64,000 nt of DNA from Phycisphaerae bacterium (GTDB lineage: Bacteria; Planctomycetota; Phycisphaerae; JAJVII01): positions 1 through 64,000 of the forward strand of contig JAJVII010000008.1 in assembly GCA_022072085.1 (NCBI GenBank), written 5' to 3'. The translations under genes were made by a program, and so were the position numbers. Position 1 is the stretch's first letter; the number at the start of each line of letters is the position of its first letter. Shown piece by piece: positions 10,812-16,647 of the stretch. The notes under the pieces are model-generated. The model was given only the letters and a program-made list of their open reading frames with translations. It was not told the DNA's origin and did not search any database.

Positions 10812-11756
10812 TTGGGAAAGAACGTCATTCCATCCGCGAGAAAATTCAGCGGGTACATTGTTCAGCGGCGTCTGGGCAGTGGAGCCAGCTCGGCGATCTT
10901 CGAGGTCTCCAACCCGACCTCGGGCGATACCTACGCGCTCAAGCGAGTCATCAAGCGTACCGAAAGCGACGAGCGATTCCTCCGCCAGACCGAGAACGAA
11001 TACGAGATCGGCCACCAGGTCGATCACCCCAACGTCCGCCGCATGTTCCAGATATTCCGCCTTCGCAGCTTCTTCCGGGTCCGCGAACTTCACCTGTTGA
11101 TGGAGCTGGTCCCGGGCAAGACGCTCGAACAGCACCGCCCGACCCGCCCGCTGACCATCGCCCGCATCTTCATCCAGATCGCCAGCGGACTGGACGCTAT
11201 GCACCAGGCCGGCTTTGTCCACGCCGACATCAAGCCCAACAACGTCATCGTCATGCCCGACGGACAGGTGAAGATCATCGACCTCGGCCAGAGCTGCCCG
11301 ATGGGCACGATCAAGCAGCGGATCCAGGGAACGCCCGACTACATCGCCCCCGAGCAGGTCTACCGCCACCCGATCGACCGGCGGACGGACATCTTCAACA
11401 TCGGCGCCACGCTTTACTGGCTGCTCACCGAGAGACACGTCCCCACGGTGCTGCCCAAACGCGACCCTGGGCGTGAGATCGCCCTGGTCACCTCCAGCCG
11501 CGCCGAGCCGCCGCACGAGATTAACCCTCGCATTCCGGCTTCACTCTCACGGCTGGCGATGGACTGCGTCAAGGTCAGCCCGACCGACCGCCCCAGCGAC
11601 ATGCGCGTCCTGCTGGACCGCCTGGAGACCATCGAGCTGATGCTCAGCCGCACCGACGACGGCCACCCGGACTCTCCCGGCGACTGGGCCGACGGACAGG
11701 TCGAGGGCAACGCCGACAACGACACCGTCGACCTGCCCGGCCTTGAAGCCGTCTGA
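10812..11756 (+). CDS. Serine/threonine protein kinase, soluble
   Basis: 314 residues from a TTG start; no ATG or GTG lies in frame upstream before the kinase domain, and the glycine loop begins at residue 21, so the start cannot be later. All kinase motifs are present: GSGASSAIFEV (22-32), Lys44 in YALKR, HADIKPNN with catalytic Asp139, DLG at 157-159 in place of DFG, and GTPDYIAPE (173-181). The C-terminal 40 residues are acidic and Asp/Gly-rich. There is no transmembrane segment and no sensor domain, so it is a cytoplasmic Hanks-type kinase. It is followed after 26 bases by a metallophosphoesterase and then a P-type-ATPase-like protein, which suggests a signalling unit. The weak start codon implies low expression. 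Confidence 0.85.
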   Translation: MGKNVIPSARKFSGYIVQRRLGSGASSAIFEVSNPTSGDTYALKRVIKRTESDERFLRQTENEYEIGHQVDHPNVRRMFQIFRLRSFFRVRELHLLMELVPGKTLEQHRPTRPLTIARIFIQIASGLDAMHQAGFVHADIKPNNVIVMPDGQVKIIDLGQSCPMGTIKQRIQGTPDYIAPEQVYRHPIDRRTDIFNIGATLYWLLTERHVPTVLPKRDPGREIALVTSSRAEPPHEINPRIPASLSRLAMDCVKVSPTDRPSDMRVLLDRLETIELMLSRTDDGHPDSPGDWADGQVEGNADNDTVDLPGLEAV

Positions 11757-11782
11757 CCCGCCGCCGGACACTGGACCAGGTC

Positions 11783-12646
11783 ATGTTCGAGCCGATCATC
11801 GCCGCATACCGCCAGGCCGCCGACGCCGCACGGCATTGTCCCCTGCGCCGCGGACAGGTCGTTCACACCCCGCCCGGCGCCGACCTGCTGATCGCCGGCG
11901 ACCTGCACGGCAACGGGCAGAACCTGCTGCGGATCGAGCGGCTGGCCGACCTCGACCGCTACCCCGAACGCCACGTCGTGCTCCAGGAACTCATCCACCC
12001 GACCTCCGACGCCTCCGACCCGCCGGCGGCCGCGGGCGACGATTCTCACCACGTGCTCACCCGCGTCGCGCGGTGGCAAGCCCGCCATCCGCAGCGCGTC
12101 CACGTGATCCTCGGCAATCACGAGTTGGCCCAGATGACCGGCCAGGACATCCTCAAGGACGGCGCGTCCATCTGCCGCGCCTTCGCCGACGGCGTCGCGG
12201 CCCACTACGGCGGCGAGGCCGCCGAGGTCCTGGACGCCATGTACGACTACTGCCGTGCCCTGCCGCTGGCGGTACGGTCAGCCGATGGCGTCGCCGTCGT
12301 TCACTCCCTGCCGGCCGACCGCCTGGCCCCGCGGTTCGACGCGACAATCTTCGTCCGCGAGCAGACCGACGCCGACCGGCTCCGCTCCGGGCCGGTCTAC
12401 CAGCTCGTCTGGGGCCGCACGGTCGGCCGCGCTGCCATCGACCTGATCCGCCAGATCCTGGACGCCAAGCTCCTCGTGCTCGGCCATCAACCCCAGCCGA
12501 CCGGCTTCCGCGTGCTGGACCACGACGCCCTGATCATCGCCTCCGAACACCGCCAGGGCGTGGCCCTTCCCCTGCCCCCCGGACCGCCGCCGTCGGCAGA
12601 CGATCTGGCCGAGCGGCTGATCCGCCTCGGCGAGGTCGCGTTTTGA
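11783..12646 (+). CDS. Calcineurin-like metallophosphoesterase
   Basis: 287 residues. Metal-binding motifs GDLHGN (39-44), GNHE (111-114) and GHQPQ (near 236) are present, as in PPP/calcineurin-type enzymes that use two metals. The usual GDxxDR motif between the first two is not evident; the place is taken by a VLQELIHPTSDASDPP segment, so the active site may be altered or one ligand comes from elsewhere. It is soluble. It follows the kinase gene by 26 bases on the same strand and precedes the ATPase-like gene by 75 bases. A kinase beside a phosphoesterase of this class often forms an opposing pair, so protein dephosphorylation is a reasonable inference; a nucleotide substrate is the alternative. 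Confidence 0.8.
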   Translation: MFEPIIAAYRQAADAARHCPLRRGQVVHTPPGADLLIAGDLHGNGQNLLRIERLADLDRYPERHVVLQELIHPTSDASDPPAAAGDDSHHVLTRVARWQARHPQRVHVILGNHELAQMTGQDILKDGASICRAFADGVAAHYGGEAAEVLDAMYDYCRALPLAVRSADGVAVVHSLPADRLAPRFDATIFVREQTDADRLRSGPVYQLVWGRTVGRAAIDLIRQILDAKLLVLGHQPQPTGFRVLDHDALIIASEHRQGVALPLPPGPPPSADDLAERLIRLGEVAF

Positions 12647-12721: not shown

Positions 12722-14800
12722 ATGGGTTATCAGTTCATCCAGATCATCGGGCTGGAGAAGCCCAGGGATCTCCGCCGGGCCCGGCGGGCCCTGGCGGCCC
12801 ACTCCGCTTCGCCCGCCTGCTGGGTCGACCCTCTGGACCAGGTCGCCTGGCTTCAGCGGCCGGGCGGGCCGTTCACCGACGACGAAACCGGCGAGGCTGT
12901 CGACCTGCTCAACCGCTCCGGATTCTGGGCCGTGCCGGTCGATCAGCGCAAGATCTCCGGGCCGGCCTGCATCGCGCTGCACCGTCGCCGCCGCATCCGC
13001 GACATCCGCCAACGGCTGGCGATCGCCGTCGGCTTCGGCCTGCCGGTCATCGCCCTGCACCTGTTCGGCCATCGCCTGGCCGCCGACCCCGCGCGCGAAC
13101 TCTGGCCGCTCTGGATGCAGCTCCTGCTCACCGGCTGGGTGCTGTTCGCGGCGGCGGGATCCTGGTTCTATCACGGCATCTGGTCGGTCATGCACGGCCA
13201 CTGGCGTTGGCGCACCGGGGCGGCGGCCGTGCTGGCCGGCGGTCTGCTGCTGGGAACCATCGACCTGGTCCTCCGCGCCTTCGGCGTTCACGGGCTGATG
13301 CACCCGCTGCTCGGCCCCAACCCGGCTGACCCCCTGCGATCCCTCTTCGCCCCCACGGTCGTCGCGCTGATCCTGCTGCTGGTCCGCGGGCTGCTCATGC
13401 GGCTGCGGCTGAGGCGGATCAGCGACCCCTTCGATCGCTGGCTGGCCAACCTCACCGGCGAGGACGAGACCCGCCTGCGGTTCTTCCTCCAGGTGCAGTC
13501 CAGCCACCAGCAGCACGGCTTGGACCTGAGCTGGGGCAAGCTGGCCGACCGCTATTCCGACTATGGCCTGGCCGCCGCGGCGGTCGTGTTCGTCCTGGCG
13601 CTCATCCTTACCGGCAGCCTCATGCCTGCGTGGCTGATCGCCGCCGCGCTGCTGCTGACGCTCGACCCGCGGACCTTCCAGTTGACCTGGGTCGCGCCGG
13701 AGGTGCTGGCTGAACGCCGCGCTGCCGCCCAGGGCCTGTTCATCGCCAACCCGCGTGTCTTCGGAAAGGCCGGCCACATCGGCGCCGTCGTCTTCGAGAA
13801 GACCGGAACCGTAACCAGCGGACGCAGCGAGGTAATCGCCGTCGAGGTCAACGCACTGGCCGGTCTGGACCTGACCGGGGACGAACTGCTCCGCCTGGCG
13901 GCTTCCGCTGAGCAAGGCTCGGAGCATTCGATGGCCCGAGGCCTCCTGCACGAGGCCCAGCAGCGCAAGCTCACGCTGTCCGAGGCCGCCGGCATACGCC
14001 GTCAGGCCGGCCTGGGCGTGTCAGCGACCGTTGACGGACGGGCCGTGCACGTCGGCAGCGAGCGGCTGATGGCCGAGAACGGCCTGGACACCAGCAGCTT
14101 CGCCCAGACCGCCAACCGCCTGCGCCGCGAGGGCTACAGCGTCGTGCTCGTTGGAGTCGGCGAGCAGATCGCCGGCGCCATCGCCGTCGAAGAAGCCGTC
14201 CGCCCCGGCGCCGAGCAGACCGTCGGCGAACTCCAGGGCGACGGCTACGGCGTTCGTCTGATCACCGGAGACAGCGAGTCGGCCGGCGCCGCCATCGCCG
14301 CCCGGCTGGGCATCGACCAGGTCGTCGTCGAACTGGGTCCGCAGGGCAAGATCGACCAGCTCGCCCGCTGGCGCCAGGCCGGTGACTGCCTGGCCGTCGT
14401 CGGCACGGTCGACAAGGACGAGGCCGCCCTGGGGGCCGCCGACGTGGCCATCGCCTTCTACGACTTCACCAGCGCCGAGGATCGGCTGGCCAACCTCGCC
14501 GACGTTGCCGACCGCGGCCTGGGCGACATCGAGGACATCACCGGCGCTGACGTCGTCGTGCTCGGCCACCGGATCGAACGCATCCCGCTGATGCTGCGGA
14601 TCGCCCGCCATGTCGGCAGCCAGCGGACGCGGAGCATGGCGTTCGTCACCGGGGTCGTGGTCGTGTCGGCGGCCATCTCGCTGCTGATGCCCCTGGCCCG
14701 CCCCATCGCCGAGTGGTCCCCCGCCGTCGTCGCCGCCCTGACGATGGCCGAACTCCCCCTCCTCCTCTCCCGCCCCGACGCCGGCGCCAAGGCCGACTGA
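12722..14800 (+). CDS. Catalytically degenerate P1B-type ATPase homologue
   Basis: 692 residues with membrane helices near 100-160, 165-230 and 275-330 and a pair at the C-terminus (640-685). From about residue 250 it follows the layout of heavy-metal P-type ATPases, but the key residues are changed. The phosphorylation motif DKTGT is EKTGT (Glu359), the CPC metal site is replaced by LDPRTF, GDGxNDAPAL is GTVDKDEAAL, and the SEHP motif is SEHSM. The A domain with its TGE loop appears to be missing or replaced. ITGD is kept. It also lacks an N-terminal metal-binding domain; residues 1-100 match nothing I recognise. It cannot form the aspartyl-phosphate intermediate, so active pumping is unlikely. 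It may act as a sensor or scaffold with the upstream kinase and phosphoesterase. The frame is intact and long, so it is not a decaying pseudogene. Confidence 0.75.
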   Translation: MGYQFIQIIGLEKPRDLRRARRALAAHSASPACWVDPLDQVAWLQRPGGPFTDDETGEAVDLLNRSGFWAVPVDQRKISGPACIALHRRRRIRDIRQRLAIAVGFGLPVIALHLFGHRLAADPARELWPLWMQLLLTGWVLFAAAGSWFYHGIWSVMHGHWRWRTGAAAVLAGGLLLGTIDLVLRAFGVHGLMHPLLGPNPADPLRSLFAPTVVALILLLVRGLLMRLRLRRISDPFDRWLANLTGEDETRLRFFLQVQSSHQQHGLDLSWGKLADRYSDYGLAAAAVVFVLALILTGSLMPAWLIAAALLLTLDPRTFQLTWVAPEVLAERRAAAQGLFIANPRVFGKAGHIGAVVFEKTGTVTSGRSEVIAVEVNALAGLDLTGDELLRLAASAEQGSEHSMARGLLHEAQQRKLTLSEAAGIRRQAGLGVSATVDGRAVHVGSERLMAENGLDTSSFAQTANRLRREGYSVVLVGVGEQIAGAIAVEEAVRPGAEQTVGELQGDGYGVRLITGDSESAGAAIAARLGIDQVVVELGPQGKIDQLARWRQAGDCLAVVGTVDKDEAALGAADVAIAFYDFTSAEDRLANLADVADRGLGDIEDITGADVVVLGHRIERIPLMLRIARHVGSQRTRSMAFVTGVVVVSAAISLLMPLARPIAEWSPAVVAALTMAELPLLLSRPDAGAKAD

Positions 14801-14874: not shown

Positions 14875-16647
14875 ATGCGCTGGACGCAGACGTTTATTCC
14901 GACCGTCAAGGAAGTGCCCGCCGACGCCGAGGTCAAGAGCCATCAGCTCATGGTCCGCGCGGCCCTGATCCGCAAGCTGGCCAGCGGAACCTACACCTAC
15001 CTGCCGCTGGGCTGGCGCAGCCTGCGGAAGGCCGAGGCCATCATCCGCGCCGAGATGGACGCCGCCGGCGCGATCGAGATTCACATGCCCGTCCTCCAGC
15101 CGATCGAACTGTGGCAAGCCACCGGCCGCGACCAGGCCTACGGCGAGAACCTCATGGTCGTCACCGACCGCCACGGCCGCCGCAACGCCCTGGGCCCGAC
15201 GCACGAGGAGGTCGTTACCAGCCTGGTGGCTGACCACGTCAGCAGCTACAAGCAGCTCCCGGTGAACCTCTACCAGATTCAGACCAAGTTCCGCGACGAG
15301 TTCCGCCCGCGGTTCGGCGTGCTGCGCAGCCGCGAGTTCCTAATGAAGGACGCCTACAGCTTCGACGCCGACAAGGCCGGCCTGGACGCCAGCTACGTCA
15401 AGATGTACGACGCCTACTGCCGCATCTTCGCCCGGTGCGGATTGAATTACGTCGTCGTCGAGGCCGAGAGCGGGCCCATCGGCGGCGACGCCAGCCACGA
15501 GTTCATGATCCCCACCGACGCCGGCGAGGACATCATCCTGCACTGCCCCGCATGCCGCTACGCCGCCAATCAGGAGCGGGCCGAGGTGGGTAAGGTCGAG
15601 GCACCGGCTGCCGGTCCGGCCTCCCCGGCGATGGCCGAGGTCCACACGCCCGGCACGACGACCATCGAGCAGGTCTCGCAGTTCCTCTCGCGTCAGCCGG
15701 ACGAGTTCATCAAGACGCTCATCTACGTCAGCGAGTCGGGCCAGGTCGTCGTCGGCCTCGTCCGCGGCGACCACGAGCTGAACGAGACCAAGCTGGCCCG
15801 GGCCGCCGGACTCGGCCCCCTGGCGATGGCCGATCCGCCGGTTATCGAGAAGCTGACCGGGGCAGCCGTCGGCTTCGCCGGCCCGCAGAGCCTGCGCGGG
15901 CGCGACGCCAAGCTGATCGCCGACCCCGCCGTCATGCCGCTTCGCAACGCCGTCACCGGCGCCAACCGGACCGACCATCACGCGGTCAACGTAGACGCCG
16001 GCCGCGACTTCGACCCCGAAACCGTCGCCGACATCCGCGTCGCGCTGGCCGACGACCCCTGCCCCCGCTGCGGCGCCCCCATGGCCGCCAGCCGCGGCAT
16101 CGAGGTCGGCCACGTCTTCAAGCTGGGCACGAAGTACACGACCAAGCTGAACGCGACCTACCTCGATGAGGCCGGCGCGTCCCACCCGATCATCATGGGC
16201 TGCTACGGCATCGGCGTGAACCGCATCCTGGCTTCGGCGATCGAGGCCGGCGCGGACGACAAGGGCATCGTTTGGCCGATCACCATCGCCCCGTTCGAGG
16301 CGATCATCGTGCCCATCGCCGCCGACCGCAACGAGTCCGTCCGCGTCGCCGCCGACAAGCTCTACGCCGACCTGACCGCCGCCGGCGTGGACGTGCTGAT
16401 CGACGACCGCGACGCCCGCCCGGGCGTGAAGTTCAACGACGCCGACCTGATCGGCATCCCGGTGCGCATTACCGTCGGCGACCGCGGACTGAAGGAAGGC
16501 AAGATCGAACTGAAGCTGCGCAGCCAAGCCGACGTGAGGATGATCGACGCCGCGACCGCCGCCGACACCGTCGGGGGCATCGTACGCGAGATGCACCAGT
16601 CGCTCCGGACCGCAGCCGTCGAGGCCACGCGGCGCAAGGAGGCGTGA
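14875..16647 (+). CDS. proS: Prolyl-tRNA synthetase, bacterial type
   Basis: 590 residues, the normal length for the bacterial form with an editing insertion. Class II motif 2 is FRDEFRPRFGVLRSREFLMKDAYSF split around residues 142-165; motif 3 and the C-terminal anticodon-binding domain (IDDRDARPGVKFNDADLIGIP near 515-540) are clear. The insertion domain (about residues 240-385) contains the ybaK-like segment that hydrolyses misacylated Ala-tRNA(Pro). Start ATG 14875 follows AGGAGA. It charges tRNA(Pro) in the cytoplasm. A promoter candidate sits just upstream, so it is probably separate from the kinase cluster. Confidence 0.95.
   Translation: MRWTQTFIPTVKEVPADAEVKSHQLMVRAALIRKLASGTYTYLPLGWRSLRKAEAIIRAEMDAAGAIEIHMPVLQPIELWQATGRDQAYGENLMVVTDRHGRRNALGPTHEEVVTSLVADHVSSYKQLPVNLYQIQTKFRDEFRPRFGVLRSREFLMKDAYSFDADKAGLDASYVKMYDAYCRIFARCGLNYVVVEAESGPIGGDASHEFMIPTDAGEDIILHCPACRYAANQERAEVGKVEAPAAGPASPAMAEVHTPGTTTIEQVSQFLSRQPDEFIKTLIYVSESGQVVVGLVRGDHELNETKLARAAGLGPLAMADPPVIEKLTGAAVGFAGPQSLRGRDAKLIADPAVMPLRNAVTGANRTDHHAVNVDAGRDFDPETVADIRVALADDPCPRCGAPMAASRGIEVGHVFKLGTKYTTKLNATYLDEAGASHPIIMGCYGIGVNRILASAIEAGADDKGIVWPITIAPFEAIIVPIAADRNESVRVAADKLYADLTAAGVDVLIDDRDARPGVKFNDADLIGIPVRITVGDRGLKEGKIELKLRSQADVRMIDAATAADTVGGIVREMHQSLRTAAVEATRRKEA

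Follow-up and report, generated by a model that had tools for sequence, protein, structure and literature searches.

A putative pseudoenzyme derived from a P1B-type heavy-metal ATPase in the Phycisphaerae

What becomes of a P-type ATPase once it can no longer pump, and why would its gene be kept? The question is raised by a single gene in the 64,000-nucleotide stretch of DNA examined here (the window: positions 1 to 64,000 of contig JAJVII010000008.1, Phycisphaerae bacterium, assembly GCA_022072085.1), the product of which follows the layout of a heavy-metal pump and departs from it at the sites where a pump does its work.

The gene and its departures from canonical pumps

The open reading frame occupies positions 12722-14800 of the forward strand, begins with ATG and encodes 692 residues with zero internal stops, precisely the intact frame described in the first-pass annotation; no promoter- or terminator-like site was detected near it. 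Descent from P-type ATPases is supported by the curated family model TIGR01494 (84 bits, cut-off 62.3) and by the Pfam HAD hydrolase model PF00702 (8e-15, 56.1 bits, cut-off 26.4). The NCBIfam heavy-metal subfamily model TIGR01525 gives an E-value of 2.3e-53, but its 181.9 bits lie far below the cut-off of 346.25. The best match among solved structures is Legionella CopA (3rfu, E 1.8e-34), followed by other copper ATPases, and the heavy-metal layout proposed at first pass holds. Judged by these scores, the resemblance to P1B ATPases is far above chance. The host genome encodes three further P-type ATPases, each with DKTGT and GDGxND intact. The features of the gene are as follows.

12722-14800, + strand: pseudo-P1B-ATPase gene, 692 aa (open reading frame, family matches and a full-length orthologue, L005/L064)
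12722-12961, + strand: residues 1-80, HMA-like ferredoxin-type domain lacking CxxC (AF2 secondary structure; alignment to canonical HMA domains)
13010-13411, + strand: residues 97-230, first four membrane helices MA, MB, M1 and M2 (hydropathy, AF2 helices of low confidence, alignment)
13406-13549, + strand: residues 229-276, remnant of the A (actuator) domain, about 81 residues missing (span length compared with canonical pumps)
13664-13672, + strand: residues 315-317, DPR where helix M4 of pumps has the CPC metal-binding motif (alignment to 52 canonical pumps)
13796-13810, + strand: residues 359-363, EKTGT in place of DKTGT (codon GAG; D in 52/52 canonical pumps)
13856-14155, + strand: residues 379-478, N domain, ATP-pocket positions kept, P of HP lost (alignment)
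14264-14272, + strand: residues 515-517, TGD (HAD motif II), kept (alignment)
14348-14350, + strand: K543, conserved P-domain lysine (HAD motif III), kept (alignment)
14402-14419, + strand: residues 561-566, HAD motif IV, GTVDKD instead of GDGxND, first G and last D kept (alignment)
14585-14767, + strand: residues 622-682, final two membrane helices M5 and M6 (hydropathy and alignment)

Hydropathy and alignment fit eight membrane helices, although the AF2 models, built on two-row alignments, inspire little confidence (mean pLDDT 39 for the whole protein and 41 for the P/N part). Residues 1-80 adopt a beta-alpha-beta-beta-alpha-beta order in AF2 with a block pLDDT of 55-81; taken alone they have no Pfam match, and they contain the conserved new motifs GLEKPxDLRRARRA and VDPLDQVxWL. 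Ahead of helix M1, in both orthologues, HxHWRWRT (residues 158-165, window 13193-13216) stands for the NMDxL-type motif, possibly as a functional motif of a new type.

The extent of the damage was gauged against a reference set of 52 canonical P1B proteins of the class, all with DKTGT and CPC/CPH-type sites. This profile alignment recovers every departure named at first pass: the phosphorylated aspartate is E359 (GAG), the M4 metal site (CPC, CPH or SPC in pumps) reads L314-DPRTF, the hinge and Mg site GDGxND is GTVDKD from G561, the HP motif ends in serine at position 403 (SEHSM, from S400), and the A domain is reduced to 48 residues compared with 128-137 (median 129) in the 52 pumps, the TGE phosphatase loop being absent at that site. 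None of the 52 carries these changes. Over the 71 columns that are at least 90% conserved, the protein keeps 33, differs at 27 and is gapped at 11, and the losses are unevenly distributed. The verdict that every catalytic signature had been lost was therefore too strong, as K360-T-G-T, T365, T515-G-D, P540, K543 and D566 remain, together with E397, S400, H402, G430, G432 and G445 of the N domain. The positions E397, H402, G430, G432 and G445 presumably correspond to the ATP-binding residues E1064, H1069, G1099, G1101 and G1149 of ATP7B. Since motifs of catalysis and transport have gone while ATP-binding positions have stayed, the machinery of catalysis and transport is broken and the nucleotide pocket seemingly preserved.

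Legionella CopA, a P1B-1 pump, has an HMA-like head and an eight-helix layout that the window protein probably shares, and over residues 250-584 the two can be aligned through their P and N domains; the CopA-like copy of the host genome itself (G000:C20) is 37% identical over 272-580. Unlike CopA, the window protein has no A domain, no HP and no CxxC in its head, and has exchanged CPC for DPR, DKTGT for EKTGT and GDGxND for GTVDKD.

A single orthologue, its ancestry and selective constraint

Two scans of genome contigs brought up one orthologue, in the metagenome-assembled genome Phycisphaerae STB_87 (JAQTVL010000030.1), which belongs to a different genus. Some 400 genomes from the class and some 390 from the phylum added none to the pair, and neither did viral contigs or plasmids. 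The two proteins are 50% identical across their full length. Two members of the family are thus known, both from draft assemblies, and the order itself is represented by these two genomes only. Downstream of both genes the order proS, panB-like, nitrilase, peptidase is common to the two loci.

14875-16647, + strand: proS, prolyl-tRNA synthetase, syntenic (Pfam; 59-61% identical to L112 6288-8057)
16922-17821, - strand: panB-like gene, syntenic (named by sequence reading; 73% identical to L112 8062-8907)
18683-20317, - strand: carbon-nitrogen hydrolase of the nitrilase family, syntenic (Pfam; 55-58% identical to L112 9001-10461)

The synteny is limited to these downstream, mostly housekeeping genes and so indicates no partner gene. 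Between the STB_87 orthologue and proS lies a glycosyltransferase-like gene in the opposite orientation (L064 4147-6231), which the window lacks. Immediately upstream of the pseudo-P1B-ATPase gene and on its strand, window 10812-12646 encodes a Ser/Thr protein kinase and a calcineurin-like phosphoesterase, the match of the phosphoesterase being weak. The phosphoesterase gene stops 76 bases short of the pseudo-P1B-ATPase gene, and neither of the two adjoins the STB_87 orthologue.

The orthologue keeps 32 of the 71 conserved columns, has the same 48-residue A-domain span and the same DPR, and retains the same P- and N-domain residues listed above. Its GDGxND reads GELGKD and its position 403 is alanine. 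The expectation that homologues would share the changes is therefore borne out for the missing A domain, DPR, the damaged GDGxND and the absent HP. It fails for EKTGT, which was found nowhere else: STB_87 has an ordinary DKTGT with a GAC codon (L064). Taken literally, a relative with DKTGT and the lack of a second protein with EKTGT make up the result that the first-pass annotation had named as refuting its claim. This result overturns only the idea that E359 defines the family, because the other losses are common to the pair. Most simply, the disappearance of the A domain, the exchange of CPC for DPR and the bulk of the remaining changes would predate the split of the two lineages, whereas E359, given the DKTGT of the orthologue, probably came after the A-domain and CPC losses, and is either a later change in the window lineage or an assembly error.

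The tree unites the two proteins in a single, fully supported clade. Its stem measures 2.42 changes per site, and the two tips, at 0.46 and 0.63, have lengths that are ordinary for the tree set. Measured along the branches, the CopA-like pump from the window's own genome comes closest to the pair, which makes descent from the P1B-1 type likely, with an exact placement left unsure by the long stem. A long stem followed by ordinary tips is as expected for a change of role and a subsequent new constraint.

The first-pass annotation had argued from the lack of stops and frameshifts that the gene is not decaying, and had proposed dN/dS as a check. Substitution ratios are of little help here. Fourfold sites of the pair are 0.53 identical compared with 0.425 for random sequences, and with silent sites so near saturation dN/dS is unreliable: NG86 returns 0.61 with an underestimated dS, the maximum-likelihood dS diverges, and NG86, YN00 and maximum likelihood are all uninformative. 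A neutral simulation calibrated to the fourfold sites and run 300 times with no selection shows the constraint instead: amino-acid identity falls to 21%, with a maximum of 25.4%, and each lineage gathers about two stops, compared with 50% and none in the real pair. Both copies have been under purifying selection since they split. The conclusion of the stop-codon argument stands, although the argument alone is weak because in a GC-rich genome full neutrality would itself produce only about two stops per lineage. Its identity is of a similar magnitude to that of its neighbours, but the gene is less constrained than proS (61%), the panB-like gene (73%) and the nitrilase gene (58%). Within the protein, conservation peaks in the helices M3-M4 (residues 283-345) at 65%, compared with 48% for the P and N domains, and the most conserved stretch surrounds DPR (residues 312-332, 18/21 identical, borderline against shuffling).

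Reduced relatives in the Phycisphaerae

A profile of the N-terminal half of the window protein retrieved shorter, membrane-only proteins of 329-374 residues (families f18 and f23) in five Phycisphaerae genomes, at one locus each.

L106, 8142-9266: membrane-only protein, f18/f23
L107, 8014-9054: membrane-only protein, f18/f23
L108, 7908-8897: membrane-only protein, f18/f23
L109, 8054-9043: membrane-only protein, f18/f23
L110, 8231-9220: membrane-only protein, f18/f23

Each resembles the window protein in its head, which has a DP motif and no CxxC, and in the first membrane helices, but A, P and N domains are absent; the two members that were scanned gave no Pfam match. Their profile matches the window protein with a hhalign E-value of 6e-11, covering the head, while canonical pumps are matched chiefly in the membrane part. 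A comparison of the heads alone gives E 0.001 over a segment too short to settle kinship, and the gene neighbourhoods differ from that of the window protein. An ftsK gene adjoins the membrane protein in L108 and L110.

A separate derivative occurs in genome G211 (L111 8053-9435, also L036 1231-2613). This 460-residue P1B derivative pairs an HMA head with membrane helices and has none of the A, P and N domains; its CPC reads GSPRALG, and it is closest to a normal pump (47%). Catalytic domains have thus probably been lost from P1B proteins more than once in the class. Two further candidates were set aside: L044, considered as a relative lacking GDGxND, reads DDGVND and looks like an ordinary pump, and L069, an iron-sulfur-type protein, matches the membrane part by chance.

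Possible roles for a pump that does not pump

The reading that we favour, with a probability of roughly 0.6, is that the window protein is a retained pseudoenzyme which arose from a P1B (CopA-like) heavy-metal ATPase and was reused in the membrane. That it is retained and does not pump, as had been suggested at first pass, is very probable: a syntenic orthologue with identical A-domain and CPC losses, more similar than neutrality would leave it, bears out this part. From what is known of the family, a protein that forms no aspartyl phosphate at the usual site, has no actuator to drive the E2 state and no CPC to hold the metal would run no Post-Albers cycle and move no metal, and it has probably been reused for another membrane job. 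What that job would be is a matter of tentative reasoning. The N domain might still bind ATP or another nucleotide, and its occupancy might be relayed to the membrane part, probably of eight helices, and to the HMA-like head that lacks CxxC, the output being that of a nucleotide-responsive membrane sensor or of a regulatory partner of another membrane protein. We regard the nucleotide-sensing step as tentative, somewhat less probable than not, and the kept N-domain residues may merely maintain the fold. An unlikely extension would make the protein a nucleotide-sensing membrane receptor, in which the N domain reads ATP or another nucleotide, the former transport helices with DPR for CPC carry the signal with no phosphorylation cycle, and the membrane-only proteins belong to the same non-pumping lineage in a more reduced state.

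A scaffold or regulatory subunit that needs no ligand, its fold kept as a dimerising or docking partner of, for example, one of the genome's canonical pumps, would account for the strong conservation of M3-M4 relative to the P and N domains, for the new membrane-proximal motifs HxHWRWRT (158-165), PFDRWLA (236-242) and DPRxFQxTWVAPEVLAER (315-332), and for the existence of membrane-only relatives; it fits poorly with the persistence of E397, H402, G430, G432 and G445 in both proteins when about half of the P/N residues differ, and no partner gene is linked, so we hold it to be possible but doubtful. A residual phosphorylation switch is improbable. It supposes that the ancestor autophosphorylated the DKTGT aspartate as a signal, dropped the A domain for that reason and became Glu-locked in the window lineage, and the orthologue does retain DKTGT, TGD and the lysine, while its motif IV (GELGKD) still has an acidic residue, but this motif is damaged in both proteins, and E359 and T562 preclude an aspartyl phosphate in the window protein.

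A functionless pseudogene in slow decay is very improbable. Its identity of 0.50 is indeed somewhat under the 0.58-0.73 of the neighbours, and the high GC content makes stops so rare that an open frame alone proves little; against this stand the neutral expectation of 0.21 at near-saturated silent sites, the equal A-domain span in two genera and the zero stops in both. The glutamate itself is another matter, and it is distinctly unlikely that E359 is without meaning, whether as an artefact of assembly or base calling or as a mutation of recent origin. The GAC of the orthologue is one base from GAG and the Glu occurs in one sequence only; nothing speaks directly against such an origin, which would be compatible with the retained-pseudoenzyme reading, since the case for a non-pumping protein is built on the common A-domain and CPC losses instead.

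If the favoured reading is true, the P1B scaffold can be reused for purposes other than pumping, and the protein offers a natural test case for the roles of the P and N domains in the absence of an actuator. It also calls for caution, as homology-based annotation would label it a copper exporter. In the open-access literature searched we found no pseudo-P-type ATPase in bacteria, and no bacterial P-type ATPase retained by selection once the A domain and the transport site had gone. Among non-pumping P-type proteins the closest precedent that came up is human TMEM94/ERMA, which has a P-type-like fold and an A-domain-like part lacking TGES, and in which one structural study found neither ATPase activity nor bound nucleotide (PMC12134183). 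A later study calls TMEM94 a Mg pump and reports Mg uptake (PMC13322241), a caution that motif loss calls for bench tests. TMEM94/ERMA differs from the window protein in being eukaryotic, in having ten helices and in keeping both an A-domain-like part and D417.
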